From Methanobrevibacter sp. (GTDB lineage Archaea; Methanobacteriota; Methanobacteria; Methanobacteriales; Methanobacteriaceae), in contig JAFRFB010000030.1 of NCBI GenBank assembly GCA_017434555.1, positions 1-57,652 on the forward strand: a stretch of 57,652 nt of DNA, read 5' to 3'. The translations under genes were made by a program, and so were the position numbers. The notes under the pieces were generated by a model. It did not search any database, was not told the DNA's origin, and saw only the letters and a program-made list of their open reading frames with translations. Below, piece by piece: positions 1,060-45,320 of the stretch (positions are counted from its first letter, which is position 1; each line of letters begins with the position of its first letter).

Positions 1060-3942
1060 ATGACAGATGAGTCTAAAAAACAGATTGTCATCAAAGGGGC
1101 AAGGGAGCATAATTTGCAAAATATTGATGTTAGTGTCCCTCGTGATGAATTTATAGTTATTACAGGACTTAGTGGTTCGGGTAAGTCTTCACTGGCTTTC
1201 GACACGATTTATGCTGAAGGGCAGCGCAGATATATCGAGTCATTGTCCGCTTATGCAAGACAATTTTTAGGTCAAATGAAAAAGCCGGAAACGGATTATA
1301 TTGAAGGTTTGTCTCCAGCTATTTCTATTGATCAAAAAACAACCAGGGAAAACCCCAGATCAACGGTAGGTACCATTACGGAAATTTATGATTATTTGAG
1401 ATTATTGTTTGCAAGAATAGGAATTCCCCACTGTCCTAATTGTGGTCGTGAAATATCCAACCAGACAATAGGACAAATTGGTGATAGTATAATAGATGAA
1501 GGAGAAGGTCTTAAAATCCAAATACTGTCTCCAATTGTAAATGATAGAAAAGGTCAGCACAAGGATGTCTTGGATGACTTAAGAAACAAGGGTTTTGTTC
1601 GTGTAAGGGTTGACGGCGAAATTCGTGAATTGGAAGAGGACATTGAACTTGCAAAAACCTATAGGCATAGCATTGATGTTGTAGTGGACCGTTTAAAAAT
1701 CAGAAGGGGTGTTGATTTTAAAAGAAGATTGGTTGACTCTTTAGAAACTGCAACAAATTTTTCAGAAGGTTTAATCACAGTATTATTTGATAATGGTGAA
1801 GAAAAATATGAAAAGAAATATTCAGAGCATTTTGCCTGTGTTGACTGTGGAATAAACTTCCAGGAATTGACTCCACGTATGTTTTCCTTTAATGCTCCAC
1901 AGGGCGCATGTCCTGAATGTAACGGTATTGGTTCCAAAATGGAAGTTGATCCGGATTTGATAGTGCCAAATCCTAATTTGACATTGAATGAGGGTGCTAT
2001 TGCGCCATGGTCAAAATCATCCAAAAAGGAAAATTACTATTATCAGATGCTTGAAGCGGTTTCAAATCACTTTAACTTCAGTATGGATGTTCCATTCAAT
2101 GAACTTCCTCAAGAATATCAGAATACGGTATTATATGGATGCAATGATAAAATACCATTCACTTTTAAAAGAAGAAACAAGTCATATATGGTAAACCGTA
2201 AATTTGAAGGTGTCATTCCAAGAATGGAGAGATTATATCTTGAAACCAAATCAAATTACTCAAGACATTACATTTCAAAATTCATGAGTGACAGAAAATG
2301 TCATGTCTGTAATGGTAAAAGGTTACGTCCGGAAATACTTGCAGTTACTGTTGGAGGCAAATCCATTGCTGATGTTGTAGAACTTCCAATAAAAGATTCC
2401 TATCAGTTTTTCCTTGATTTGGAATTAACTGAAAGAGAACTATTCATTGCTAAAGAGGTTTTAAAAGAAATCAGGGAAAGGTTGAAATTCCTGGTTGATG
2501 TAGGGCTTGATTATTTATCTATGGAGCGTTCTTCAGGTACATTGTCCGGTGGAGAAGCCCAAAGAATAAGACTGGCTACCCAAATCGGATCAGGTCTTGT
2601 TGGTGTTTTATATATTCTGGATGAGCCTAGTATCGGTCTTCACCAAAGGGACAATGTCAAGTTAATCGGAACATTGAAAAGGCTTAGAAACCTTGGAAAT
2701 ACCGTTGTAGTCGTTGAACACGATGAAGAGACAATATTATCCGCAGACCATGTTGTGGATATAGGTCCCGGTGCCGGTGAGCATGGAGGTAAGATTATAG
2801 CTCAGGGAACTCCCCAGGAAATCATGATGTGTGAGGATTCAATCACCGGAAAATACTTATCAAGAAAAGAAGTGATTGATGTACCTAAAACACGCCGTGA
2901 AGGAAACGGGGAATTCATTACAATCAAAGGTGCTAAACAGAATAACTTAAAAGATATTGATGTTGAAATTCCTTTAGGTAAATTCACTTGTGTTACTGGT
3001 GTAAGTGGATCCGGTAAAAGCAGTCTGATAAATGAAATTCTCTATAAGGGAACAAAAGGGGAATTGTCCAATAAATTCACCTTCGCAGGAAAATACGATG
3101 AAATTGAAGGATTAAAAAATATCGATAAGGTAATAGCTATTGACCAAAAGCCGATTGGACGTACACCAAGGTCAAATCCTGCAACATACACTGGAGTATT
3201 CACTGATATCAGAGATTTGTTTGCCAACACTCCGGAATCCAAGGCACGTGGATATAAGCCCGGCAGATTCTCTTTCAACGTTAAGGGTGGAAGATGTGAA
3301 GCTTGTTCCGGTGACGGTATAGTTCAAATTGAAATGCACTTTTTGGCTGATGTTTATGTTCCGTGTGAAGTCTGTGGCGGTAAAAGATACAATGAAGAGA
3401 CATTAGATGTCCGTTATAAAGGTAAAAATATCTATGAAGTCCTTGAAATGACTGTTGAAGAAGCTTTAGAATTCTTTGAACACATTCCTAAAATACATAA
3501 GAAACTTAAAACATTATATGATGTCGGATTAGGTTATATGAAAATAGGTCAGCCTGCAACAACATTGTCCGGTGGTGAAGCTCAAAGAATCAAGCTGGCG
3601 AAGGAATTGTCAAGAACAAGTACGGGTAAAACATTATACATTTTGGATGAACCTACTACAGGCCTTCATTTTGCTGATATTAAGCGGTTGCTTGACGTAT
3701 TGGCAAGACTTACCGATGCAGGTAATTCCATCGTTGTCATCGAGCACAATCTGGATGTTATTAAAACTGCAGATCACATCATTGACCTAGGTCCTGATGG
3801 AGGAGATGGTGGAGGACGTGTTATTGCAACAGGAACTCCAGAAGAAGTATCTGAAAGTGGAACCTATACCGGTGACTTTTTAGATAAAATTCTCAATGAA
3901 AACATAACTCCATATGCAAAAGAATTAATGGATGCTAAATAA
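1060..3942 (+). CDS. uvrA: Excinuclease ABC subunit A (UvrA)
   Basis: UvrA is the damage-sensing ATPase of nucleotide excision repair. It binds distorted DNA as a dimer and loads UvrB. The 960-residue length is normal. Two ABC modules are visible: Walker [10 protein letters not shown] near residue 37 and GVSGSGKSS near 647, and the signature [12 protein letters not shown] near 495 and [12 protein letters not shown] near 837. Zinc-binding CxxC pairs occur near residues 124 (CPNCG), 254-285 (CVDCG, CPECNG), 411 (CHVCNG) and 746-775 (CEAC, CEVCGG). The ATG follows a GGGAG ribosome-binding site at 1049-1053. uvrC lies in this window 40 kb away and uvrB is not present. Archaeal uvrABC genes are generally thought to have come from bacteria. 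Confidence 0.97.
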
Positions 3943-5386: not shown

Positions 5387-7969
5387 ATGCTAGTTTTAAA
5401 AAAAATAAAAAAACAGTGGAGATTATATCCTATCGGTTCACCAAAAGGGGCATTGAATCATAAAAGAGAGCCCGAATATGTGGGTAATATTAAATTTACA
5501 CAAAATGGTGATTCTTTAGCTATTTCTAGATTTATAGCAGATTATAATTTTAAAGAAAATTCGACTTTAAATGAAAAGCTAATCCCTCCGGGTGAAGTAA
5601 ATAAGCTTCTTCGTTCTCAAGCTGTTTTTTTAGCAACTCCTGATGAAAAGGTGGAAAATTTCTTAAAATCCCTTAATGTTAAAGTCAGACACACTCGAGT
5701 ATGCGATTACTGTGCCTATGATGGAAAAATCACTATCGTAAACTCCGATTTTTCATATAATTTTCAAAATCAGTTGTTATGTAAAAATTGTGCATTTGAC
5801 ACAATTAAAAATGAAATTAAACTTCAGGGTTTTGATAAAAATATTTTCAGGAACTTAAAATCAATACTTGAAAAAACTGATGATTTGGAAAAAACATTAT
5901 CGGTTCTTGATCCTCATTTCAACCCTTTAAAAAATAAAAATCTAACATTATTTGACAGAACTTCTACCAAATCAAGGCTTAAGATTCCAACTGTTGAAAT
6001 GAAGCGATTAAAAATTAACCCTGATTTTAGAGACATTCTAATTAAGAACGGCAACGATAAATTATTGCCTGTCCAGTATCTGGCCATTCATGAAGGATTG
6101 CTTAAAGGAGAAGATTTGCTTGTTGTAAGTGCAACGGGAAGTGGAAAAACTCTTGTCGGTGAACTTGCAGGTATCACACAGGCTTTAAAAGGTAAAAAGT
6201 TTATTTTCCTTACTCCTTTGGTAGCTCTGGCCAATCAGAAATATCGCGATTTCAAAAAGAAATATAAGAAATTAGGTTTAAATGTAGCCATTAAGGTTGG
6301 CCGCAATCGTGTAAAGGCAAAAGGCGAGTTGAAACTTCCTGACAGTGATGTATCTGGAGCTGACATTGTTGTTGCAACTTATGAAGGAATCGATTTTCTT
6401 TTAAGAAATGGAAATTCTCATACTTTAAGCAATTTGGGGGTTGTTTTAATAGATGAAATCCACATGATTGATGATGAGGACAGAGGAACCAGATTAAACG
6501 GACTGATTAAGAGAATAAAGAATTTATATCCTCAAACTCAGATTATAGGGTTATCAGCTACCGTAAAAAATCCGGAATTTTTAGCTCAGGAATTCAATAT
6601 GAAGCTTGTGGAGTATCCTGACCGTCCTGTACCTTTGGAGAGACATTTGGTTTATATGAGAAGCGAGTCATCAAAACGTCACCTGATGGCTAAATTAGCC
6701 AAAAAGGAATTCAATACCAAATCTAAAAAGGGTTATCGAGGTCAAACCATTATATTTACAAATTCAAGGCGTAAAACCCATAAAATTGCTAATTTCCTCC
6801 AGGAAAAGCATATCAATGCTGCTGCATATCATGCGGGACTGTCATATTACAAAAAGGAAAAAATAGAAAAGGACTTTGATAGAGCCAGATTGTCGGTTGT
6901 GGTAACGACTGCGGCATTGGCTGCAGGTGTTGATTTTCCGGCTTCACAGGTAATATTTGACTCTTTGGTTATGGGAAATAAATGGATTAATCCAAATGAG
7001 TTTTCACAGATGCTCGGTCGTGCAGGAAGACCAAGCTATCACGATAGAGGTATTGTTTATCTGCTTCCGGAAATTGGAAACGACTTTGCAGGAGAAAGTG
7101 AAGAATCAAAAGCACTGGAATTACTTGAAAGCAATAGTGAAGATGTATTTATTGAATATGATGAAGAAAGTTCATATGAACAGATTTTAGCAGATATTTC
7201 ATCAACATCCATCAAAAATATGGATGAATTAAATAAATTTTATAAGGATATTGATGTACCAATCAGTTTGGAAATTGCGGTTCGTGAAATGTGTGAGTTA
7301 GGTTTAATAAGTGATGACTTTAAAATAACTAAATATGGAAGGGCTACATCAGTTTCATTTTTAAGTATTGATGATGCTGAATTCATTAGAACTGCCTTGG
7401 ATGATTGGGATTATTTAATTAATTATGTTAAATTGTCCCCAATGTATAAAAATAAACAGGAATTTGATAAATTACAAGTAAAGATTATTGCAATGGCTTT
7501 GGATTTGGAATTATTTGAAAATGCATATTTGTCTTCAGTTATTCACAATCAAATAGCCAATGCTTTAAAAATCAAGTTTTCGACAAGGTTATTTGCAGAG
7601 TCGACTTTGGATATTATTTCATCCGGTGAAGCTTTAGAAAAATTGGATTCTAAATTCCAGGATGCTTTAATACGCCTTCAAAGTGACTTTTTAAAATGTA
7701 ATTGTCAGGACAGGCCATTTTGCAGATGTATGCAACTTGGAATTTCAGAAGTGATAATTCATGAACGTCTGAAAGGTAAAGATCCGGTTGACATTTCAAA
7801 AAAGCTCTTTAGAAAATATCAGATTCAAGTCTATCCGGGAGATATATTCTCATGGCTGGATAATTTTGTTAAAAACTTGGATGCTATTGAAAGAATAGCT
7901 AAAGCTTTTAATCGCAGGAGTATTGGACGTAAAACTTCTTATTTAATTAAAAAAATAGAAAACGGGTAG
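5387..7969 (+). CDS. Archaeal superfamily II DNA/RNA helicase (DUF5814/COG1202 type)
   Basis: An 860-residue helicase. A cysteine-rich N-terminal domain has CDYC near residue 106 and CKNC near 133, consistent with the DUF5814 zinc module. The SF2 core follows: Walker A SATGSGKT near 248-255, DEIH near 355, GLSAT near 388, and QMLGRAGRP near 541 in the second RecA domain. The C-terminal part holds a second cysteine cluster, CNCQDRPFCRC, near 771-781. Proteins of this type are archaea-specific and their exact role is not established; repair or recombination is likely. There is no Shine-Dalgarno sequence. A TATA-like stretch about 26 bases before the ATG suggests a leaderless transcript. The next gene, a HerA-like ATPase, starts four bases after the stop, so the two are probably co-transcribed. 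Confidence 0.88.
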   Translation: MLVLKKIKKQWRLYPIGSPKGALNHKREPEYVGNIKFTQNGDSLAISRFIADYNFKENSTLNEKLIPPGEVNKLLRSQAVFLATPDEKVENFLKSLNVKVRHTRVCDYCAYDGKITIVNSDFSYNFQNQLLCKNCAFDTIKNEIKLQGFDKNIFRNLKSILEKTDDLEKTLSVLDPHFNPLKNKNLTLFDRTSTKSRLKIPTVEMKRLKINPDFRDILIKNGNDKLLPVQYLAIHEGLLKGEDLLVVSATGSGKTLVGELAGITQALKGKKFIFLTPLVALANQKYRDFKKKYKKLGLNVAIKVGRNRVKAKGELKLPDSDVSGADIVVATYEGIDFLLRNGNSHTLSNLGVVLIDEIHMIDDEDRGTRLNGLIKRIKNLYPQTQIIGLSATVKNPEFLAQEFNMKLVEYPDRPVPLERHLVYMRSESSKRHLMAKLAKKEFNTKSKKGYRGQTIIFTNSRRKTHKIANFLQEKHINAAAYHAGLSYYKKEKIEKDFDRARLSVVVTTAALAAGVDFPASQVIFDSLVMGNKWINPNEFSQMLGRAGRPSYHDRGIVYLLPEIGNDFAGESEESKALELLESNSEDVFIEYDEESSYEQILADISSTSIKNMDELNKFYKDIDVPISLEIAVREMCELGLISDDFKITKYGRATSVSFLSIDDAEFIRTALDDWDYLINYVKLSPMYKNKQEFDKLQVKIIAMALDLELFENAYLSSVIHNQIANALKIKFSTRLFAESTLDIISSGEALEKLDSKFQDALIRLQSDFLKCNCQDRPFCRCMQLGISEVIIHERLKGKDPVDISKKLFRKYQIQVYPGDIFSWLDNFVKNLDAIERIAKAFNRRSIGRKTSYLIKKIENG

Positions 7970-7973
7970 AAAA

Positions 7974-9542
7974 ATGTTTGTAGAAGATAAAATTTTAATC
8001 GGTGGTGATGTTTATTTACTACCGAAAATGGCAAATAGGCATGGTTTGATTGCAGGTGCAACAGGAACCGGTAAGACTATAACTCTTAAAACACTGGCTG
8101 AATCTTTCAGTGATATGGGAGTTCCAGTATTTTTAGCTGACATGAAAGGAGATATTTCAGGACTTGCAAAGACAGGTGAAATGAATGATAATGTCGCTAA
8201 AAGAATTGAAGGATTGGATTCATTCAAGTTAAAATCATATCCTGTTGAATTTTGGGATTTATTTGGTCAGAAAGGTTTGCCTGTACGTGTAACCTTATCT
8301 GAAATGGGTCCTACATTATTATCTAAAATTTTAAACCTTACAGAAGCTCAAAGCGGAGTTTTAAATATTGTATTTAAGGTTGCTGATGAAGAATCTTTAC
8401 TTATTATTGATATTAAAGATTTAAAATCAATGATTAACTATGTGGTTGAAAATAAGGATACTTATGAACCGATTTATGGCGCAATTGCCGCTAAATCAGC
8501 CAATACAATTTTAAGAAATCTGATTACCTTAGAAGATCAGGGAGGAAACGATTTCTTCGGTGAAGTTGCTTTGGACTTGGAGGACTTTATAAGAGTTGAT
8601 GATTCAGGATGTGGTGTAATCAATATTCTGGATGCTCAAAAATTGTCCTTATCTCCTGAAATCTATTCATCATTTTTACTTTGGATGTTGTCCTCACTAT
8701 ATGAACAGTTACCTGAAGTGGGAGATGCTGATAAGCCTAAATTTGTATTTTTCTTTGATGAAGCACATTTGATATTTGACGGTATGGGTGCAGAATTCTT
8801 AAAGAAAATTGAACAGATTACTCGTTTAATCCGTTCAAAAGGTGTTGGATTATACTTTATTTCCCAGTCTCCATCAGACATTCCTGATGAAATTTTAGGT
8901 CAATTGGGTAATAGAATTCAGCATGCGTTAAGGGCTTACACTCCAAAAGACCAAAAGGCAGTTAAAGTTGCAGCCCAAACATTCAGACCAAACCCTGAAT
9001 TTGACACTGCTGATGTTATTTCCAATTTGGGTATTGGTGAAGCTTTGGTTTCTGTTTTGGATGCTGACGGTGTTCCAGGTATTGTTCAAAAGGTTAATAT
9101 TGTTGCTCCTCAATCTTATATTGGTCCTATTGACGACAGTTTAAGGGCCGAGTTAATTAACCTGTCTGAATTTAAGGAAAAGTATTCTCAAGCTATAGAT
9201 AATGAATCAGCTTATGAAATCCTTGCAAATAAAATAAATCAAAATGAAAATATTGAAACTGAAGTTCCTACAACTCCTCAGGTAAGTGAAGAAGTACCTC
9301 CTCAAGCACAAGAAGCTCCTCAAGCACAGGAAGCTCCTCAAAATCAACAGGATGCACCTTTATCAATTGGTGGTTTTGATTTGGGAAGTATTTTAGGTGG
9401 CGGACAAAGTGCTTCAGGTAAAAGAGCTAAAAAGACTCCTCAACAAAAAGCTGTTGAACAAGCAGCAACAGCTGCAGCAGGTACCATTGCACGTGAAGTT
9501 TCTAAAGGTATTGTTAGGGGACTCTTCGGTCAGATGAAGTGA
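7974..9542 (+). CDS. HerA-like P-loop ATPase (DUF853 family)
   Basis: This 522-residue ATPase resembles the HerA/FtsK-like DUF853 family (YjgR in bacteria). Walker A GATGTGKT is at residues 28-35 and a DEAH Walker B at 262-265, with the RSKGVGLYFISQSPSDIP segment that follows in this family. The last 80 residues are low complexity, rich in Pro, Gln and Ala (PQAQEAP repeated near 445-455), then end in a Lys- and Ala-rich tail. That tail could be flexible or bind nucleic acid. It lies directly behind the SF2 helicase gene, which suggests joint work in DNA processing. The family function is not settled, and no nuclease partner of the NurA type is visible nearby. Confidence 0.87.
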   Translation: MFVEDKILIGGDVYLLPKMANRHGLIAGATGTGKTITLKTLAESFSDMGVPVFLADMKGDISGLAKTGEMNDNVAKRIEGLDSFKLKSYPVEFWDLFGQKGLPVRVTLSEMGPTLLSKILNLTEAQSGVLNIVFKVADEESLLIIDIKDLKSMINYVVENKDTYEPIYGAIAAKSANTILRNLITLEDQGGNDFFGEVALDLEDFIRVDDSGCGVINILDAQKLSLSPEIYSSFLLWMLSSLYEQLPEVGDADKPKFVFFFDEAHLIFDGMGAEFLKKIEQITRLIRSKGVGLYFISQSPSDIPDEILGQLGNRIQHALRAYTPKDQKAVKVAAQTFRPNPEFDTADVISNLGIGEALVSVLDADGVPGIVQKVNIVAPQSYIGPIDDSLRAELINLSEFKEKYSQAIDNESAYEILANKINQNENIETEVPTTPQVSEEVPPQAQEAPQAQEAPQNQQDAPLSIGGFDLGSILGGGQSASGKRAKKTPQQKAVEQAATAAAGTIAREVSKGIVRGLFGQMK

Positions 9543-16054: not shown

Positions 16055-16106
16055 AGTCTTACTTTAAACTTTTTTGAATATATACTCTTTGAGTAGTAAT
16101 TTATTT

Positions 16107-16173
16107 AAAATGATATTGAAAACAAGTAATAATTTTTTTTAAAATGATATTGAAAACGAGTAATAATTTTTTT
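16107..16173. repeat. Tandem 34-bp direct repeat in the divergent promoter region
   Basis: Two adjacent copies begin at 16107 and 16141 and differ by one base (AACAAGTAATAA versus AACGAGTAATAA). Each contains AGTAATA, a degenerate form of the AGTAATACT palindrome that follows downstream. They lie between the aldo/keto reductase gene (minus strand) and the P-type ATPase gene (plus strand), in a 383-base gap otherwise filled by the operator array. Confidence 0.8.
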
Positions 16174-16187
16174 AGAAAAACTCCTAA

Positions 16188-16424
16188 AAGTAATACTGTG
16201 TATATAAATGAAAGCAAAAAAAGTAATACTTTTATATGGGAAGTTACAAAAAGTAATACAGGGTATTTAAACGAATTCAAAAAAAGTAATACTTTTGGCT
16301 GTTTGTATTACTTTGTGTTTTGACCAGTATTTATTTTTTTAATTGGTTTTCAGAATATGGGATTTCAATTGAAAATTTTTCTGTAATAGTGGGTATATAA
16401 ATGAATTCAAAAAAAGTATTACTT
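16188..16424 (+). promoter_or_regulatory. Iterated promoter-operator array upstream of the metal P-type ATPase
   Basis: The core motif is a 13-bp odd palindrome, AAAGTA-W-TACTTT. Core copies start at 16188, 16221, 16251 and 16284, spaced 33, 30 and 33 bp apart, with reverse or alternate-centre copies at 16305-16313 and 16414-16424. A 63-bp module containing two cores and a TATA-like GTATATAAATGA or GTATTTAAACGA is repeated (16188-16250, 16251-16313), and a third partial module occurs at 16383-16424. In the last, the TATA box at about 16393-16402 predicts a start near 16420, so the operator at 16414-16424 would sit on the transcription start, as for a repressor. The regulator is unidentified; metal responsiveness is inferred from the gene controlled. 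Confidence 0.75.
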
Positions 16425-35882: not shown

Positions 35883-38800
35883 ATGATCATCATGTTGTCC
35901 AATTCATCTAATAATAATAAAATCGAAAGGGAGTTCGAAAACTTACGAAAGGAGTTACTGGATTTAACTTTAAGAAATCAGTTGCTTAATTTCAAGTCCA
36001 GAGCTAAAACTATCAAAATCAATAACCAAACTCCGATTAATATCTTCCAGACATTAGTTTTACAAGAAAACAAAATGTATTTTGTATCTAATAAGAAAGA
36101 TAAGAAGGAAGAAAAATCTTCAGTTTGGGACCATATTCCATTTGATTTCAGTAAGTTTTCAGAAGGAAATAAAAAGCTGGAGGTTGATTTAACTCCAAAT
36201 GAGCTCCAAAAGAGATTGTATTATATTAATAACCAGGCTAAAACAATGCTTCAGGAGCAGGGTTACAATATTTTATATTTAGCAGTTGGATTTTTGGAAT
36301 GGATTGACAAATCCAAACCAAGACAAACTAATAAGGCTCCTTTAGTTTTAATTCCTGTTTCTATGGAGAGAAAAAAAGTAGGTGAATCATTTAATTTGGA
36401 ATGGACTGGAGAAGATATTCAAACAAACATTTCCCTTAAGGCGAAACTTATTGAAGGAGGTATAGAACTTCCTGATTTTGAATTTAAAAAATATGGTGAA
36501 GTAATAGACCATTATATTGAAAAAGTAAAACATGCCGTTCACAAGATGGAAAACTGGAGAGTCAATCATGAAATTGCATTAGGTTTCTTTAGTTTTACAA
36601 AATTTGTAATGTATAATGATTTAAATCCGGATAGCTGGGAGGCAAATGTGGATTTAACCAAAAATGAATTGATTCAGGCAATTTTCAATCCTGCTAAAAA
36701 TAATGTTGAAGCATTCAATGAAGAGGACATTGACTCACAGCTTCAATATCAGTCAATGTATCAGGTTTTAGATGCCGATTCATCACAGATTGCTGCAATT
36801 CAGGATGTAAAAGCAGGAAGAAACCTTGTTGTGGAAGGACCGCCGGGAACAGGTAAATCACAAACTATCGTTAATTTAATTGCTGAATTGCTTGCAGAAG
36901 GCAAATCAGTCTTATTCGTATCAGAAAAAATGGCAGCATTGGATGTTGTAAAAGACAGACTTACCAATGTAGGTTTGGGTAAATTCGTTTTGGAACTTCA
37001 TTCACATAAAACCAGACGTAAAAAATTCCTAAAAGACCTTCAAAAGGCAACTACCGTAAGGGCTGTTGACACTTTAAATATCGACCAGACCATAAGAAAA
37101 CTTGAAACCTTAAAGATACAGCTGGACGAGTATGCAAGTGTTATTCACCGGCCTGTATCTGCTGTAAATTTATCTGCATTCCAGTTATATGGTATGAAGG
37201 AAGCGGCTGATGATCACTTTTCACGTAAACAAAGCATAATGCCTTTGGTGAGATTCAATAATCCCGAATCAATAACGTTAAAGGATTTGGATGATATTAT
37301 TTTGTCTTTGGAAAGTGTTGCCGAGTTGTATCAGACCATTTCAAAGGAAAATCCATGGAGCAAATGCTCTCCTAAGAGTTTGCTTCCAGGGGATTTAAGG
37401 GAAATAGAAATGTTAATCAACGATACATTAAAATCTCTTGATGCCTTTTTGGTTGAACGTGGAAGAGTTTATGACATTTACGGTATTAAAAAGCCCGAGA
37501 CATTAAACGAGTTTAAAAAATCCCTTTCTGCTTTTGACATTATAAAAACTCAAAATTCCGAATTGATTGATGCTCAAATATTGAAATCCGGTGCATGGGA
37601 CAATAATAATGATGACCCTTACAGGTTAATACAGGAATTGGCAAAATATCAAAGGGTTGCAGGAGTATTGGATAAATTCAATCCAAACATTTACCATGCA
37701 GATATCGACAGGATAATCTATGAACTGAATGAACTCTCCCATAAGAAATTCCGCTTCTTTAAGGGCAATCAGCATCTTGATCTTGTTGAAAGATATTATA
37801 ACTATCCTGTTCAGGACGATATCAACACTATCATTGATGACTTAACTCAAGCAAAAGCAGCTATAAGGCTTAAAAAGAATTTGGAAGCTAATGAACAATT
37901 AGCTAAAAGATATTATGGTGGATATTGGCATTTGAATGCTGATGTTAATGATTTAAAAGCTATTGCTCAGTGGATGACTCAATTTACAGCACTTACAAAT
38001 GAAGGCATATTTTCACAAAATACCATTGACATTTTATCAAAAGATTTATTCGACATTAATCCGGAAAGAGATTTGGTTGACTATATTGATTCCGGAAACG
38101 AATTCAGCAATGATTTGGATAAATTAAAATCAAAATTAAACCCAAGAAGTAAATTAATATTTAAAAAAGGTGCAAATGATGTTGCATTTGAAGAATGGCA
38201 ATCACAATTATACAACTGGAGAGGACAGCTTTCAAGTCTCCATTTATGGTCCCAGTATCTGAATACTAAAAATTCACTTAAAGGAGCAACTGCAGAGCTA
38301 TTTGTAGATTCAATCGAAAAAAGAAACATTAAAAAAGATGATGTCAAATCACTGGTTGAAGGAAACTTTGCAGATTCCATGCTCAATATCTTATTTGTCG
38401 AAAACCATGAATTGGCTACATTCATTGGTGAACTTCATGAAAACAGAATAAGGGAATTTAAGGATCTGGACAGAAAAATCTTAGTCCTGAATCGTAAAAG
38501 AATCTTCCATAAGTTAAACAGCAATATTCCACAAATATTTGGTGCAACAGAAAATCCTCAGGCAAAAGTGCTTGCAGGAGAGTTTACTAGAAAAAGCGGA
38601 CACCTTCCTGTTAGAAAATTATTGGAAAAAGCAGGAGGAATGATTAAACAGATTAAACCATGTTTCATGATGTCTCCGTTATCCGTTGCACAGTATCTTG
38701 ATCCAACCAACGAAGAATTGCAGTTTGATGTAGTAATTTTTGACGAAGCAAGTCAGGTAAAACCTGAAGATGCATTAGGTGCATTCATGAGAGGTAAAAC

Positions 38801-41800
38801 TGCGGTTGTAATGGGAGATACTCAACAGTTACCTCCAACATCATTCTTTGATCAGATGGCCAGCGGAGAAAGTGACGAAGAAGAGGCAACTTCTCTTGAC
38901 ATGGAAAGTATTCTGCATTTATGTAAATTGTCATTCCCTGTTAAAATGCTTAAATGGCACTACAGAAGCCGTCATGAATCATTAATTAATGTTTCCAATA
39001 AGGAATTTTATGATAACGAATTGCTCGTATATCCTTCACCTTCACATAATGACTCAGAATTGGGATTAAAATTCCATTATAATCCTGATACTGCATATGA
39101 CAGAGGTTCATCTTCTGCAAATCCAAAAGAGGCAGAAGATGTTGTTGAAGCTATATTTGACCATTTTGATAGATACGGTGATACTAAAAGTTTAGGTGTC
39201 GGTACATTTTCCGTTGCACAAAAGAATGCAATTTTAGAAAAATTGGAAGAAAGACGCCGTGAAAGACCTGAATTCGAACCGTTATTCTCAGAAAATAAAG
39301 ATGAAAGATTCTTTGTTAAAAACCTTGAAACCATTCAGGGAGATGAAAGAGACGTTATTTTAATCAGTGTAGGATATGGTTTTGACAATGAAAGGAAAAT
39401 GTCTTTAAACTTCGGTCCGCTAAATCAGGATGGTGGTGAAAGAAGATTAAATGTACTGATTACACGTGCAAGACAAAAATGTGTTGTATTTTCCAATTTT
39501 AAAGCTTCAAGTATGAAATTAACTGCAAATCCTCCTCATGGTGTAAGGGCATTGAGAGAATTTTTAGAGTATGCTGAAAACCTAACTATGGGTACTCATA
39601 CAGGTGAAGAACATACTTCAGCACCATTTGAAGATGCTATAGCAAGTTTTCTTGAAGAAAACGGTTATATTGTAGATAAACAGATTGGATGTGCAGGATT
39701 TAGGGTGGATTTAGCTATTGTTGATGAAGAAAACCCTGGAAAATATATTTTGGGAATCACAACCGATGGAAAAATGTATGCATCCAGTAAAGTTGCACGT
39801 GACCGTGACAGACTCCGAGAACAGGTACTTGAAGGCCTGGGATGGAAACTTTATCATTTATGGTCTACAGACTGGTACAGAAACCGTGATTTGGGACGTA
39901 AAAAATTATTGGAATTCATTGAAAAATCCATTAAAGAAACCCGTAAAGAACAAAAAATAGCTCGTGAAAAAGAAGAAAAACGTAGAATTGAAGTTGAAAA
40001 AAGAGCTGAAGAATTAAGGAGAAAACGTGAACAGGAGCTTGAAGAACAAAAGAAAAAAGAAGCTGAAGAAAAAGCAGCAGCTCTTGGAGACAATGTAGAA
40101 GTAATACTTCCTGATGGCCTTGACTTTGATGATGATATAATTTTTGTAAGTAAAGATTCTGATGATGACTTTGATGATGATGGTATAGAATTTGTCCAGG
40201 ATGAATCTCCTAGTGAGTTTGTTGAAGCTGAAGAAGAAGCTAAGGAAGATATTAAAATGAAATCTCCTAGTGAGTTTGTTGAAGCTGAAGACGATGTTAA
40301 AGATGATATTAAAGTGAAATCTCCTAGTGAGTTTATTGAAGTGGATGAAGAATCCAGTGCCTTTGATGACTTTATTTTCAAAGATGATTTAGAAGAATCT
40401 TCGGATGATGATAATCAAACTCCAGATATTGATGATAATTTAGAAGTCACTGATAAAGATGACTCTGATGATGATAATCAAACTTCAGATATTGATGATA
40501 ATTTAGAAGTCACTGATAAAGATGACTCTGATGATGATATTGATTTAGAATCTGGTGATGATTTGAAAGATTCTGATGATTCTGAAGTCATATCTTTTGA
40601 AGATGATGAAATATCTGAAATTATTAATGAAAGTTTAGATGAAAGCTTTGAAAAAATTAACTCTTCAAATACTGATGAAGACGAAATTATTGAAGAAGAA
40701 TCTGATGATATAGATATTGATGAATTTTTTGAAGAATTAACTGATGATGACTCTAATAATCATTTAGATGATGGTGGAGAAGATGAAGATACACTTGAAA
40801 GTGATAAAGACGGTAGCGAAGATGTTCCATATACAGACGAAGAACTCACAGAAGAAATCCAAGAAGAATCCGAAGAAGAAATAGATGAGGATTCAGATTC
40901 TCCAAAAGTTAAATTTGGATCCAGTATTTCTAAAGTTTCTAGTGGCGGAATTTTGTCTTCAATTAAAAATAAATTTTCACGCTTTAGTGATGATGAAACT
41001 TCAGATGATGAATCAATTGATGAAGTAAGTGACATAATTAAAGATAAGCTAGATAATGATGATGGATTTATATATGTTGACCACGATGATGACGAAATCA
41101 TTGAAGAGGATGATGTAGATGACGTTATTGATGAAGAAATCATTGATGAAACTCCTGAGGAGGTTATCATTGAAGATGATATTGATGATGAAATCACAAA
41201 AGAAAGTGCTCTAGATGAGGAAATTATCGATGAAACTCCTGAGGAGGAAATCGTTGAAGTTGATGATATTGATGAGGAAATTATCGATGAAACTCCTGAG
41301 GAGGAAATCGTTGAAGTTGATGATATTGATGAGGAAATTATCGATGAAACTCCTGAAGAAGAAATTATCCCTGAACCTGTTAACAAAACAAATAAAAAAC
41401 CTAAAGTTACTTTCAACAAATCTACCGACAGTATAGATGTAGATGAACTTTCACCTGTTGAAAATGAAGTTAATCATGATAATTTAGACGTTGAATCTGA
41501 CGATTATAAGATTGATTTAGATGAAGATTTTGATATTCAACATGTAAAAGAAGAGGAAACTGCTGATTTGGACGAAGATTCTGATATTCAACATGTAAAA
41601 GAAGAGGAAACTGTTGATTTGGGTTCAGATGATGAATATATTCATGTAGAACATGATGATATGCAAGTTGATGAAGAAACAGTTCAGGATAATGAAGTTG
41701 ATGATGTAAAACATGACTTGGATGAAGATAAAGTTGATTTAGGTCCTGATGAGGATTATATTTATGTAGATCACAGTAATGATGAAGAAAGTATCATTGA

Positions 41801-43559
41801 TTATTCCGAGGATGAAAATGAACCTCCTGTTGTTGAGGTAAATCCTTTGAAAAATATTTTATTCGGCGATAGAAAGCCAAAAAATCAGGATGGAATAAGT
41901 GAATCTAAATTTGCAAATGCCATTAAAGGCACTACTAAAATTAATTTAACAAAAGAAGAGGTTGAAACAGTCCATGGAGAAATTATTGATGATGAATTAA
42001 TTGACCCTAAACCTGCTCCTGAAGATGATGATGTGGTTGAAGTTGAAATTCTTTCTGGAGATTATAAAGCTCGCAATGTGGATGTTAATCCTCTTAAAGA
42101 TATGAATGATGATGTAATTGAACATGAAAATAAAGACTTTGAAGATAGAAAGAATGTTGTGTTTAAAAGAAATGTTGATGGTGTATCTGAAATGACGAAA
42201 AACAGAATTATTAAAGAAAATGATTTTAATCGTGTAATTGATGAGGCTTTTGAAAATCATCCTGACGGCAGTCTTGATGATGAAGATATTTCTAATCTTG
42301 CTTCTGTACTGGTAAGTAAGGCATTCGATGATGTAATTTCTGATGCATTTAATGAAAAAGATGATGGATATAATGCAGAATATGAAGACAACCTTGAAGA
42401 TAATCAAGAAAATATTGTAAATAATAATGTTAATGAAGTGGATAGTCAAAAAACAAATCCAATATCTACATCACCTGATGGTGTTACTTATTATAAGGGC
42501 ATTAATGATGTAAACAGTCCTTTAAGAAAAAATAATTTGTATTATGATGAGGAGAAAAACAAAAATAAATCAGTTAAAGACTCCATCAGAAGCGGTATAC
42601 GTGATATAAAATATATTCGCAAATCCTTAAATGAAATCGAAAACCCGACACAGGTAGGATACGTTTCTGTTGTAGATAGGACAGAAGAATATGATGAAAG
42701 TGAATATTTAACTCCAATTCAGGATTATGAAGGCGAAGAATATGTCCCTCAGGATGAAGGATTAACATTCGCTGAAAAAGAGGAATTAAGATACGAACGT
42801 GAACTTCAAATGGAAAGACTTAAAAAAGAGTTATCCAGTGATGAAGATACCATAGTCACAATTCATGAAGAGGAAAGGCGTGAAGACAGAAAAGATCAGG
42901 CCTTGGAAGATATTATTCAGATAGCTGATGAAGATTATAAAGAAATTGAAAAAGAGAGATTTAAAAGCAATAATACTTTAAAAGCATTTGATGATAATAA
43001 GATTCCAAAAAGAGGCAAAGTTGAAGATGAAATTGTGGATTATAAGTTTGCAAGCGATTTCGGACTAAATTCACAAGATGATTTATTCAACCAGCCGATT
43101 GAAAATGTATCTAAATCAATTAATGAAATTATTTCTGTAGAAGGTCCAATTCATGTAAATGAGGTTGTAAAAAGAGTTAAAGATAGCTGTAATATTAAAA
43201 GAGCAGGTTCTAAAATGAAAAAGCAAGTTCAAAAAGCTATTAAGGAATCTGAAAAATCAGGAAATATTATAAGGATTGGAGACTTTTTATATGATGCCTC
43301 AAGCAATGATGTTGTTATCAGAAGAAGGGTAAAACCGAAAATAGATTTAATTTCAGATGAGGAAATCGCCAAAAATATTGAAACGATTCTCTCCCACAAG
43401 CAAAGTCTGACAACAGCCAGTTTAACAAGAGAAGTTTCACGTAATTTCGGTTTCAAATCAACGTCCCGTAAAACATCATTTAAAATAAAAAGTGTACTGG
43501 ACTCCATGATTGCAGAAGGTACTGTTAAATTATATAATGATATTGTTGAGCTCAATTAG
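35883..43559 (+). CDS. Giant DUF4011 superfamily-1 helicase with REase-like and DUF3320-like domains
   Basis: A 2558-residue protein. Residues about 15-300 match DUF4011 (LLDLTLRNQLLNF near 22). An SF1/Upf1-like helicase core follows: Walker A GPPGTGKSQT with Lys325, Walker B DEASQV at 954-959, MGDTQQLPPTSF near 981, and ITRARQKCVVF near 1193. Residues about 1247-1340 are a Vsr/MTES_1575-like nuclease domain (FRVDLAIVD, ARDRDRLREQVLE, WSTDWYR). A Lys/Glu coiled coil spans 1348-1404. About 980 residues of Asp/Glu-rich tandem repeats follow, then a DUF3320-like C-terminal region (about 2389-2558, EGPIHVNEVVKRVKD). Similar proteins lacking the acidic segment are usually near 1500-2000 residues. 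A TATA box at about 35847-35858 suggests a leaderless ATG at 35883. uvrC follows nine bases after the stop. Function is probably DNA repair or phage defence. Confidence 0.88.
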   Translation: MIIMLSNSSNNNKIEREFENLRKELLDLTLRNQLLNFKSRAKTIKINNQTPINIFQTLVLQENKMYFVSNKKDKKEEKSSVWDHIPFDFSKFSEGNKKLEVDLTPNELQKRLYYINNQAKTMLQEQGYNILYLAVGFLEWIDKSKPRQTNKAPLVLIPVSMERKKVGESFNLEWTGEDIQTNISLKAKLIEGGIELPDFEFKKYGEVIDHYIEKVKHAVHKMENWRVNHEIALGFFSFTKFVMYNDLNPDSWEANVDLTKNELIQAIFNPAKNNVEAFNEEDIDSQLQYQSMYQVLDADSSQIAAIQDVKAGRNLVVEGPPGTGKSQTIVNLIAELLAEGKSVLFVSEKMAALDVVKDRLTNVGLGKFVLELHSHKTRRKKFLKDLQKATTVRAVDTLNIDQTIRKLETLKIQLDEYASVIHRPVSAVNLSAFQLYGMKEAADDHFSRKQSIMPLVRFNNPESITLKDLDDIILSLESVAELYQTISKENPWSKCSPKSLLPGDLREIEMLINDTLKSLDAFLVERGRVYDIYGIKKPETLNEFKKSLSAFDIIKTQNSELIDAQILKSGAWDNNNDDPYRLIQELAKYQRVAGVLDKFNPNIYHADIDRIIYELNELSHKKFRFFKGNQHLDLVERYYNYPVQDDINTIIDDLTQAKAAIRLKKNLEANEQLAKRYYGGYWHLNADVNDLKAIAQWMTQFTALTNEGIFSQNTIDILSKDLFDINPERDLVDYIDSGNEFSNDLDKLKSKLNPRSKLIFKKGANDVAFEEWQSQLYNWRGQLSSLHLWSQYLNTKNSLKGATAELFVDSIEKRNIKKDDVKSLVEGNFADSMLNILFVENHELATFIGELHENRIREFKDLDRKILVLNRKRIFHKLNSNIPQIFGATENPQAKVLAGEFTRKSGHLPVRKLLEKAGGMIKQIKPCFMMSPLSVAQYLDPTNEELQFDVVIFDEASQVKPEDALGAFMRGKTAVVMGDTQQLPPTSFFDQMASGESDEEEATSLDMESILHLCKLSFPVKMLKWHYRSRHESLINVSNKEFYDNELLVYPSPSHNDSELGLKFHYNPDTAYDRGSSSANPKEAEDVVEAIFDHFDRYGDTKSLGVGTFSVAQKNAILEKLEERRRERPEFEPLFSENKDERFFVKNLETIQGDERDVILISVGYGFDNERKMSLNFGPLNQDGGERRLNVLITRARQKCVVFSNFKASSMKLTANPPHGVRALREFLEYAENLTMGTHTGEEHTSAPFEDAIASFLEENGYIVDKQIGCAGFRVDLAIVDEENPGKYILGITTDGKMYASSKVARDRDRLREQVLEGLGWKLYHLWSTDWYRNRDLGRKKLLEFIEKSIKETRKEQKIAREKEEKRRIEVEKRAEELRRKREQELEEQKKKEAEEKAAALGDNVEVILPDGLDFDDDIIFVSKDSDDDFDDDGIEFVQDESPSEFVEAEEEAKEDIKMKSPSEFVEAEDDVKDDIKVKSPSEFIEVDEESSAFDDFIFKDDLEESSDDDNQTPDIDDNLEVTDKDDSDDDNQTSDIDDNLEVTDKDDSDDDIDLESGDDLKDSDDSEVISFEDDEISEIINESLDESFEKINSSNTDEDEIIEEESDDIDIDEFFEELTDDDSNNHLDDGGEDEDTLESDKDGSEDVPYTDEELTEEIQEESEEEIDEDSDSPKVKFGSSISKVSSGGILSSIKNKFSRFSDDETSDDESIDEVSDIIKDKLDNDDGFIYVDHDDDEIIEEDDVDDVIDEEIIDETPEEVIIEDDIDDEITKESALDEEIIDETPEEEIVEVDDIDEEIIDETPEEEIVEVDDIDEEIIDETPEEEIIPEPVNKTNKKPKVTFNKSTDSIDVDELSPVENEVNHDNLDVESDDYKIDLDEDFDIQHVKEEETADLDEDSDIQHVKEEETVDLGSDDEYIHVEHDDMQVDEETVQDNEVDDVKHDLDEDKVDLGPDEDYIYVDHSNDEESIIDYSEDENEPPVVEVNPLKNILFGDRKPKNQDGISESKFANAIKGTTKINLTKEEVETVHGEIIDDELIDPKPAPEDDDVVEVEILSGDYKARNVDVNPLKDMNDDVIEHENKDFEDRKNVVFKRNVDGVSEMTKNRIIKENDFNRVIDEAFENHPDGSLDDEDISNLASVLVSKAFDDVISDAFNEKDDGYNAEYEDNLEDNQENIVNNNVNEVDSQKTNPISTSPDGVTYYKGINDVNSPLRKNNLYYDEEKNKNKSVKDSIRSGIRDIKYIRKSLNEIENPTQVGYVSVVDRTEEYDESEYLTPIQDYEGEEYVPQDEGLTFAEKEELRYERELQMERLKKELSSDEDTIVTIHEEERREDRKDQALEDIIQIADEDYKEIEKERFKSNNTLKAFDDNKIPKRGKVEDEIVDYKFASDFGLNSQDDLFNQPIENVSKSINEIISVEGPIHVNEVVKRVKDSCNIKRAGSKMKKQVQKAIKESEKSGNIIRIGDFLYDASSNDVVIRRRVKPKIDLISDEEIAKNIETILSHKQSLTTASLTREVSRNFGFKSTSRKTSFKIKSVLDSMIAEGTVKLYNDIVELN
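40206..40376 (+). repeat. 57-bp tandem repeat, about 3 copies, coding
   Basis: TCTCCTAGTGAGTTT begins units at 40206, 40263 and 40320, encoding the 19-residue unit SPSEFVEAE... The first two units are close to identical for about 30 bases and then vary. It lies inside the giant helicase gene. Confidence 0.85.
40404..40529 (+). repeat. 63-bp tandem repeat, two copies, coding
   Basis: Units start at 40404 and 40467 and encode 21 residues each (DDDNQTxDIDDNLEVTDKDD). They are identical over most of their length apart from a Pro-to-Ser codon change. Confidence 0.85.
41130..41372 (+). repeat. 57-bp acidic tandem repeat, about 4 copies, coding
   Basis: Units start at 41214, 41271 and 41328, with an older 54-bp copy at about 41130. 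The units at 41214-41270 and 41271-41327 appear identical at the base level and encode the 19-residue DEEIIDETPEEEIVEVDDI. Identity of that degree suggests recent duplication. Confidence 0.88.
41532..41633 (+). repeat. 51-bp tandem repeat, two copies, coding
   Basis: GATATTCAACATGTAAAAGA begins at 41532 and again at 41583. Each 17-residue unit reads DIQHVKEEETxDL with a short variable part. Confidence 0.8.
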
Positions 43560-43568
43560 GTATTTTAA

Positions 43569-45320
43569 ATGTCAACAAAAATTACATCTCCCGAAAATTT
43601 ACCAAAAAAGCCCGGCGTTTATATAATGAAAAATGCTGAAGGCGAAATTATCTATATAGGTAAGGCAAAAAACCTTTTGAATAGGGTTCGTTCTTATTTT
43701 AGGGAAAAGCTAGACCGGCCAAAAACTCAAATATTGATGAGTCATTTTGACAGTCTGGAATACATTTTAACTAACTCAGAAAAGGAAGCTTTAATTTTAG
43801 AAGCCAATCTGATTAAAAAGCATCATCCCCGTTATAATATACAATTAAAGGATGATAAACGTTATCCTTATGTTAAAATAACCAATGAAAAATTCCCTCG
43901 TCTCGTTATTACAAGAAATATCACTAAAAATGGAGTGTTTTACGGACCTTTCACTGATGTAGGTTCTGTAAGAAGAACTGTTAAGTTTTTAAAGTCATTA
44001 TTTAAAATCAGAACCTGCCGTAACATGAATGGTCCATGTTTAAATTCTCAGATTGATTTGTGTTATGCTCCATGTGATGGAAAAATCACAGAAAAGGAAT
44101 ATGCTGAAATAATTAATAAAATTGACTTGTTTTTCCAGGGAAAATATTCTGTAATTGTTAAAAATCTTAAAAAGGAAATGAAAGAAGCAGCTGAAAAAGA
44201 AGAATATGAAAAGGCTGCCGTTTTAAGAGATCAGATTGAATCAATAGAAGAGATTATGGAAAAGCAATTTGTTGACTTGGTCGATGATGATTTGGACCAG
44301 GATGTAATAGCTATTGCGAAGGGAAAAACTGACATTTATGTTGTAATAATGCCCATTAGAAATGGGAAAATCACAGGCCGTGATGACTTTTTGATGAGTG
44401 GATCTGAGGACGATTCGACATCAGAGATTCTCTCTTCTTTTATTCAACAGTATTACGGTTATAACAGACATGTTCCAAAACAGATTCTTTTAAGTGAAGA
44501 AATTGCTGATAAGGAATTGATTGAAGAATGGTTAAGTGACCTTAGAGGCAATAAGGTTCATATCAAGGTTCCGCAAAAAGGCGTTAAATTAAGGCTTGTT
44601 AAAATGGCTGAAAAGAATGCTGAGATTATCAGGCATCAAAAGAAAAAACTGGAAAATTCTTTAATCGAACTTAAAAAATATTTAAAGCTTGAAAAGGTGC
44701 CTCGCGTTATTGAAGGTTATGACATAAGTAACATTTCCGGTAAATTTGCTGTAGGCTCAAAGGTATCATTTAAAGATGCAAAACCAAATAAAAAGATGTA
44801 TAAACATTTTAAAATGGAAACTCCAGGACCTAATGATTTTGCAATGATGAAAGAATTGTTAACTCGCCGTTTAAAATTAATCGAAACAGATCCTGAACCT
44901 GATTTGATTGTTATTGACGGAGGTAAGGGTCAGTTGGGTATGGCATGTGACGTTTTGGATGAATTGAACTTAACTCACATTCCTATTATAGGTCTTGCAA
45001 AGGAATTTGAAGAAATCTATCTTCCAAACTCAAAAAGACCGATTATAATTCCTAAAAACAACCGAGCTCTCCATCTTCTCCAGCAGGTAAGGGATGAATC
45101 TCACCGTTTTGCTATTACATATCATAGAAAGCTTAGAAGTAAAAATATATCCGAATCCAGTCTTGATGACATTAAAGGCATTGGTAAAAAGCGTAAAATT
45201 AATCTTTTAAAGGAATTTGGAAGTATTGAAAATATAAAAAATGCAAGTCTGGAAGAGTTAAGCAATGTTGATGGAATGAGTAAAAGTTCTGCCCAAAATG
45301 TTTTTGATTACTATCATTAA
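43569..45320 (+). CDS. uvrC: Excinuclease ABC subunit C (UvrC)
   Basis: UvrC makes the two incisions in nucleotide excision repair. The 583-residue protein has a GIY-YIG domain (KPGVYIMKNAEGEIIYIGKA near residues 12-31), a Cys-containing linker (CRNMNGPCLNSQIDLCYAPC near 143-162), a UVR motif with EYEKAAVLRDQIESIEE near 215, the RNase H-like 5'-incision domain (IEGYDISNISGKFAVGSKV near 378) and tandem helix-hairpin-helix motifs at the end (IKGIGKKRKINLLKEFGSI). It starts nine bases after the giant helicase stop, so the two are probably one transcript. Its partner UvrA is encoded at 1.1 kb. A short GGGC...CGCC hairpin with a T-run follows the stop. Confidence 0.96.
   Translation: MSTKITSPENLPKKPGVYIMKNAEGEIIYIGKAKNLLNRVRSYFREKLDRPKTQILMSHFDSLEYILTNSEKEALILEANLIKKHHPRYNIQLKDDKRYPYVKITNEKFPRLVITRNITKNGVFYGPFTDVGSVRRTVKFLKSLFKIRTCRNMNGPCLNSQIDLCYAPCDGKITEKEYAEIINKIDLFFQGKYSVIVKNLKKEMKEAAEKEEYEKAAVLRDQIESIEEIMEKQFVDLVDDDLDQDVIAIAKGKTDIYVVIMPIRNGKITGRDDFLMSGSEDDSTSEILSSFIQQYYGYNRHVPKQILLSEEIADKELIEEWLSDLRGNKVHIKVPQKGVKLRLVKMAEKNAEIIRHQKKKLENSLIELKKYLKLEKVPRVIEGYDISNISGKFAVGSKVSFKDAKPNKKMYKHFKMETPGPNDFAMMKELLTRRLKLIETDPEPDLIVIDGGKGQLGMACDVLDELNLTHIPIIGLAKEFEEIYLPNSKRPIIIPKNNRALHLLQQVRDESHRFAITYHRKLRSKNISESSLDDIKGIGKKRKINLLKEFGSIENIKNASLEELSNVDGMSKSSAQNVFDYYH

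Follow-up and report, generated by a model that had tools for sequence, protein, structure and literature searches.

A core Methanobrevibacter helicase with a long acidic arm and a probably nuclease-dead Vsr-like domain

Several pipelines file DUF4011 helicases as defence proteins; here we describe one branch of them that is core. The window, by which we mean the whole 57,652-nucleotide stretch of Methanobrevibacter DNA analysed (contig JAFRFB010000030.1), encodes a member of this branch in which a very long Asp/Glu-rich segment separates the helicase core from the C-terminal domain. The locus raises the question of whether such a protein belongs to defence at all, and of what its acidic segment could do. 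A sequence-only reading had linked the architecture to antiphage defence (Hhe) and proposed that the segment could be a DNA mimic, a tether or an autoinhibitory arm.

Anatomy of the protein

The gene is an uninterrupted open reading frame of 2558 codons (35883-43559), on the + strand like every feature located below. From this frame, its domains and its orthologues we describe the product as a 2558-aa DUF4011 / UPF1-like SF1 helicase / Vsr-like / acidic arm / winged-helix tail protein. Pfam finds DUF4011, AAA_11/AAA_12 (a split UPF1-like SF1 helicase), MTES_1575 and DUF3320 in that order, and together with the ORF check this bears out the coordinates and the anatomy first put forward, that of DUF4011, helicase, Vsr-like domain, acidic repeats and DUF3320. 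DUF4011 (aa 24-189; 35952-36449; PF13195, E 9e-45) is matched once in the 3.15 Mb source genome, in this protein alone. AAA_11 covers helicase domain 1A (36777-36986) with its Walker A sequence GPPGTGKSQ (aa 319-327), and AAA_12 the stretch from motif II (VIFDEAS, D954) to domain 2A with motif VI, LITRAR (38733-39497). An apparently degenerate MTES_1575 Vsr-like nuclease-fold domain follows (aa 1249-1346; 39627-39920; Pfam E 4e-31), and from it a long Lys/Glu-rich helix, recognised by composition and in the AF2 model (aa 1346-1400; 39918-40082), leads into the acidic disordered arm (aa 1401-2398; 40083-43076), which has a counterpart in every long-arm orthologue. The protein ends in DUF3320 (Pfam match to aa 2399-2446, E 4e-12) and a C-terminal tandem winged-helix tail (together aa 2399-2558; 43077-43556).

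Walker A and the Walker B sequence DEAS are invariant in all 85 proteins aligned, and the motif VI arginine is retained in the same alignment. Structure prediction, which the sequence-only reading had proposed as a check, returned a UPF1-like motor fold in a model of moderate confidence (residues 230-1400; pLDDT 74, pTM 0.49), whose best PDB fold matches are Senataxin, Sen1, Aquarius, IGHMBP2, UPF1 and Dna2; motifs and nearest folds alike identify the motor as a UPF1-like SF1B helicase. Residues 1335-1399 form a single continuous helix in this model. For the tail, AF2 predicted a tandem winged helix with confidence (pLDDT about 84-95), as two helix-helix-helix-hairpin units; a PDB fold search returned weak individual matches only, to tandem winged-helix proteins (ESCRT-II, SelB, AlkX).

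The Vsr-like domain and the genomic setting

The core had been described as a helicase-nuclease, and this description held for the fold (REase_MTES_1575) and failed for the catalytic residues, which are not intact. Vsr pairs Asp51 with His69 (PMC11879112) and has an unorthodox FXH instead of the (D/E)XK half-motif (PMC1189080). In the window protein, where residue equivalence is by motif alignment and not from a solved structure, D1276 and D1295 are kept, T1293 stands at the half-motif Glu and A1300 at the position of Vsr His69. The catalytic Asp is accompanied by neither the half-motif Glu nor the Vsr His, as an active Vsr-type or PD-(D/E)XK nuclease would require, and the Hhe nuclease motif D...IECDG...YH is absent, with ITTDG...YA found where plasmid Hhe has IECDG...YH. 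Across the long-arm clade the Vsr His is lost in 58 of 58 proteins and the motif Glu in 47 of 58, replaced by T, Q, I, N, M or K; over the whole tree the Glu position needs seven changes. Archaeal paralogues, by comparison, keep the Glu in 12 of 12 cases and the His in 11 of 12, and D...(I/V)ECDG...YH is present in Hhe and six other bacterial relatives and missing from one Acinetobacter and one phage relative.

These alignments indicate that the Vsr-fold domain is probably nuclease-dead, although with D1276 and D1295 in place it may have residual activity. Its conservation among long-arm proteins (mean major-residue fraction 0.86) resembles that of the motor (0.87-0.89), which argues that the domain has been retained for a purpose other than cleavage, the simplest being nucleic-acid binding. 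Because the Glu and His are also absent from the orthologues of Methanothermobacter and Methanocorpusculum, which have no arm, nuclease decay characterises the core lineage, not the arm; the idea that arm growth caused it is not supported.

A single-copy core orthologue, roughly 69-96% identical, is found in 64 of 67 Methanobrevibacter genomes. In a 65th (G057) the arm, tail and uvrC are present and the contig breaks off inside the arm, and the two genomes with no orthologue (G036, G059) have no uvrC either, so that these absences are probably assembly gaps. Orthologues also occur in Methanobacterium-like genera, Methanovirga and Methanothermobacteraceae; one from the last family (L177, in G149) is split over several frames, as a pseudogene or through sequencing error. 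Methanosphaera has lost the gene as a lineage: none of 20 genomes holds a core orthologue and 19 of the 20 hold uvrC, with only more distant, patchy relatives (41-46% identity) present.

In the window, uvrC (43569-45320; TIGR00194, 639 bits) begins 9 bases downstream of the helicase gene on the same strand. Its start lies 0-14 nt downstream in 28 of 29 complete Methanobrevibacter loci (L032-L060), and in the other (L057) it is immediately adjacent or overlapping. Upstream stand pfkB-like, cation efflux, HisA/HisF-like, prefoldin and IMPDH genes and downstream, after uvrC, genes for a zinc-ribbon protein, an ABC ATPase and a universal stress protein, in an order retained in nearly all complete loci of the genus. 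The neighbours differ in the ruminantium group (g9), the Methanobacterium-like genera and Methanothermobacter, and adjacency to uvrC is confined to genera g1, g3 and g6. A promoter and terminator scan of the helicase-uvrC junction used bacterial consensus sequences, which carry little information for an archaeal host. Likely co-expression with uvrC suggests a role in DNA repair or in clearing blocked DNA/RNA structures; coupling to repair would not be obligatory, given that Methanosphaera has uvrC and no helicase gene and that uvrC lies elsewhere outside g1, g3 and g6. Other features of the window include uvrA (1060-3942, about 32 kb upstream of the helicase-uvrC pair), genes for a DEAD-box helicase with DUF5814 and then a HerA-like ATPase on the same strand (5387-9542), and AT-rich direct repeats of 33-34 nt in an intergenic stretch beside a P-type ATPase gene (16092-16293).

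Accessory DUF4011 paralogues of 1663-2477 aa with an intact nuclease motif were also seen (L178, L180, L181, L182, L184), some of them with a long insertion in mid-helicase; L182, L183 and L184 lie near restriction or other defence-like genes. Several paralogues are near type I restriction, HKD-SNF2 or BrxHI-like genes, whereas the orthologue sits among housekeeping genes, and this divides the family into two kinds, core and accessory.

Composition and history of the acidic arm

The segment between the core and DUF3320, put at about 980 Asp/Glu-rich residues in the sequence-only reading, measures 998 aa (1401-2398). It is 35.8% Asp+Glu and 8.9% Lys+Arg, with a net charge of -268 and no Trp or Cys, and its charge-hydropathy value of +0.36 lies far on the disordered side (core, -0.07). 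Acidity is densest in residues 1401-1990 and low in 2191-2398. Few places in the genome have a run of eight acidic codons and the helicase gene has none, so the acidity of the arm is dispersed, not homopolymeric. As far as composition goes, the arm fits a DNA-mimic protein as a candidate role.

Several different tandem repeats had been noticed in the segment, and TRF resolves four distinct arrays: 57 nt x 2.6 with an SPSEFVEAE unit (40204-40352), of which near relatives have 0-1 copy; 63 nt x 2.2 with an NQTSDIDDNLEVTDKDDS unit (40404-40539); 57 nt x 2.7 with an DEEIIDETPEEEIVEVDDI unit (41214-41365); and 51 nt x 2.2 with an DLDEDFDIQHVKEEETA unit (41513-41622), the last three not found in near relatives. 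Internal protein repeats cover 28% of the arm, against 0.8% in composition-matched shuffles. Two elements stand out in the alignment. The motif (F/Y)I(Y/H)V(D/E)H occurs three times (aa 1729-1734, 1919-1924 and 1959-1964, in the region 41067-41774) and in 1-4 copies in most of Methanobrevibacter. A stretch at about aa 2231-2253 that includes IRDIKYIRKSLNEI (42573-42641), modelled as a helix by AF2, is recognisable by motif scan and alignment across most long-arm genera. No PCNA-interacting peptide of the QxxLxxFF type was found in the arm or tail of the window protein or eight orthologues. The conserved, docking-like helix and the winged-helix tail fit a tether or an autoinhibitory arm.

We traced the arm on a tree of the helicase core built without the Vsr domain, counting linkers of more than 300 residues as long arms. 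All 58 long-arm sequences form one clade, in which a single change explains the trait; on this tree, the long arm arose once. With lengths counted from where the nuclease domain stops, so that the roughly 55-residue Lys/Glu helix is included, the arms of these 58 proteins span 317-1125 residues and are 22-37% D/E, with a negative net charge in every one. The minimum of 317 belongs to a gene with its frame broken in the arm (L187), the shortest otherwise being 397, and arm length and net charge go together over the 58 proteins (Spearman -0.94). The linker is an acidic 136-208 residues in the Methanobacterium-like outgroups, 71-86 residues in Methanothermobacter and about 65, not acidic, in Methanocorpusculum. 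Since Methanothermobacter gets by with a nearly arm-less orthologue, the arm is an addition made in one lineage.

It had been proposed that the segment be compared in related strains, and that the idea would fail if orthologues carried the same long acidic spacer with identical repeats and were purely housekeeping. Relatives do share the spacer, but not the repeats: the arrays of the window protein are missing from relatives with 90-94% identical cores (apart from the 0-1 copy of one array), and most long-arm relatives contain their own repeats. Arm and charge thus persist while repeats turn over; length is retained as well, as are the helix near 2231-2253 and, across most of the genus, the (F/Y)I(Y/H)V(D/E)H motif.

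Comparison of near relatives gives a dN/dS of 0.16-0.36 for the arm, against about 0.03-0.05 for the core, values by which the arm segment is judged to be translated and constrained. At its acidic sites D/E interchange makes up 28% of changes, against 15-27% expected neutrally, and a depletion of acid-to-base changes in the arm was not seen; site-by-site selection on charge is accordingly weak or absent, and any selection there is would act on a bulk property.

Function and relation to defence systems

We found no experiments on any orthologue in the literature. The reading we prefer, and to which we give about an even chance, is that of a core genome-maintenance helicase, probably nuclease-dead, whose engagement with DNA is tuned by a polyanionic tether, through a mechanism that we infer. 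Methanobacteriales would share a core helicase passed on by vertical descent, and the protein would be its form in the Methanobrevibacter lineage, made up of a UPF1-like SF1 motor, an N-terminal DUF4011 and a Vsr-fold domain that probably does not cut and may still bind nucleic acid, with a polyanionic disordered arm joining a putatively DNA-binding winged-helix tail to the body. The arm would have come from expansion of a short acidic linker, its growth and turnover continuing by tandem duplication. It may be an electrostatic competitor of DNA at the positively charged surfaces of the motor, the Vsr-fold domain and the tail, and could double as a long tether with the helix at 2231-2253 as its docking point. 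The helicase would then be kept away from ordinary DNA and act only at places where its tail, or a partner, has a hold.

If the protein were an active antiphage nuclease-helicase like Hhe, ProA or PDC-S37 that has become constitutive in Methanobrevibacter, this would account for the domain order, which is that of Hhe, and for the matches to the PADLOC models PDC-S37 (the best, 1652 bits over 12-1396) and Hhe (PDLC02194, 690 bits); defence genes can turn core, and paralogues of the same family adjoin defence genes in some genomes. The HMM search proposed for the core recovered its DUF4011, helicase, Vsr-like and DUF3320 domains, but the scores stay below the curated cut-offs both for Hhe (NF042953; 919.5 bits, cut-off 2000) and for ProA (NF058533, the best NCBIfam model; 1331.5 bits, cut-off 1500). 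PDC-S37 is itself a prediction and its label does not discriminate, as the paralogues and the Methanothermobacter orthologues all match it. Instead of the mobile or patchy distribution typical of a defence gene we find a core gene, essentially genus-wide, among fixed housekeeping neighbours before uvrC, and the nuclease residues that Hhe and the paralogues retain are lost. We regard this explanation as very unlikely, and the antiphage link drawn in the sequence-only reading is not supported for this orthologue. A viral origin was rejected, the matches on viral contigs being to the P-loop and no more than 70 residues long. A related Vsr domain does occur on one phage scaffold, itself unverified.

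The protein might instead be a dedicated nucleotide-excision-repair factor working with UvrC, for example in clearing an incised strand or stalled transcription. The uvrC start within 15 nt in Methanobrevibacter, the presence of uvrA in the same window and the likeness of the helicase fold to Senataxin/UPF1/Dna2 speak for this; the adjacency is, however, limited to g1, g3 and g6, Methanosphaera dispenses with the helicase while keeping uvrC, and the genome holds two other UvrD-family helicases, on which ground the sole role of a UvrD substitute for UvrABC was rejected. We think such a dedicated role unlikely, with the proviso that it overlaps our preferred reading, so that confidence in one does not exclude the other. 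The arm has also to be weighed by itself. That it is functionless, a fast-evolving low-complexity linker grown by replication slippage and tolerated, would agree with its species-specific, quickly turning-over repeats, a dN/dS about ten times that of the core, charge that is not conserved site by site and retention of the gene in arm-less relatives. Yet AT-rich drift should favour Lys and Asn besides Asp and Glu, whereas net charge is negative in 58 of 58 proteins; the arm is never shorter than 317 aa, its dN/dS is well under 1 and its helix motif is conserved across most long-arm genera, and we consider lack of function improbable. Methanobacteriales package DNA with histones, and histone chaperones typically have long acidic disordered tracts, so the acidity of the arm could mark a module that chaperones histones or other chromatin proteins, as in eukaryotic remodellers. 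Methanothermobacter also has histones, however, and its orthologues are almost arm-less, and we know of no histone-binding motif in the arm; we hold out little hope for this idea.

A bolder form of our preferred reading, which we offer as doubtful, is that a defence-type helicase-nuclease was domesticated in one archaeal lineage into a nuclease-dead, UvrC-coupled maintenance machine, with a new arm of up to about 1100 residues that would gate access to DNA by charge and not by sequence. A core gene with decayed nuclease residues means that the defence label misleads across a genus of gut and rumen methanogens. The orthologues also form a natural series, from no arm through a short acidic linker to arms of 400, 700 and 1000 residues, that would allow direct measurement of what a disordered acidic arm does to a helicase.

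Set against known systems, the window protein shares the DUF4011-helicase-MTES_1575-DUF3320 order with PDC-S37, belongs to that family by order and score, and has arm-less outgroup orthologues that match the model end to end; it differs in its roughly 1000-residue acidic arm, its lost nuclease residues and its place as a core gene beside uvrC. PDC-S37 is a predicted defence candidate, of a class set up by embedding whose members mostly have no experimental validation (PMC12988326). Hhe has the same DUF4011, SF1 helicase and Vsr-like domain, the last about 49-50% identical, but keeps IECDG...YHS, is plasmid-borne and has no acidic arm in its model. ProA is colinear from profile position 352, with positions 1-351 unmatched in the window protein. 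The DUF4011 gene flanking cDHS1 in Pseudomonas aeruginosa is likewise core, present in every isolate, with no acidic arm reported, a likeness drawn from its description and not from its sequence (PMC10250203). FASTKD4 is a precedent and not a relative: its Vsr-like fold has also lost the partner of the catalytic Asp and binds without cutting, but in a mitochondrial RNA-binding protein (PMC11879112). We see in the window protein a new, core form of a familiar type of protein rather than a new antiphage system.
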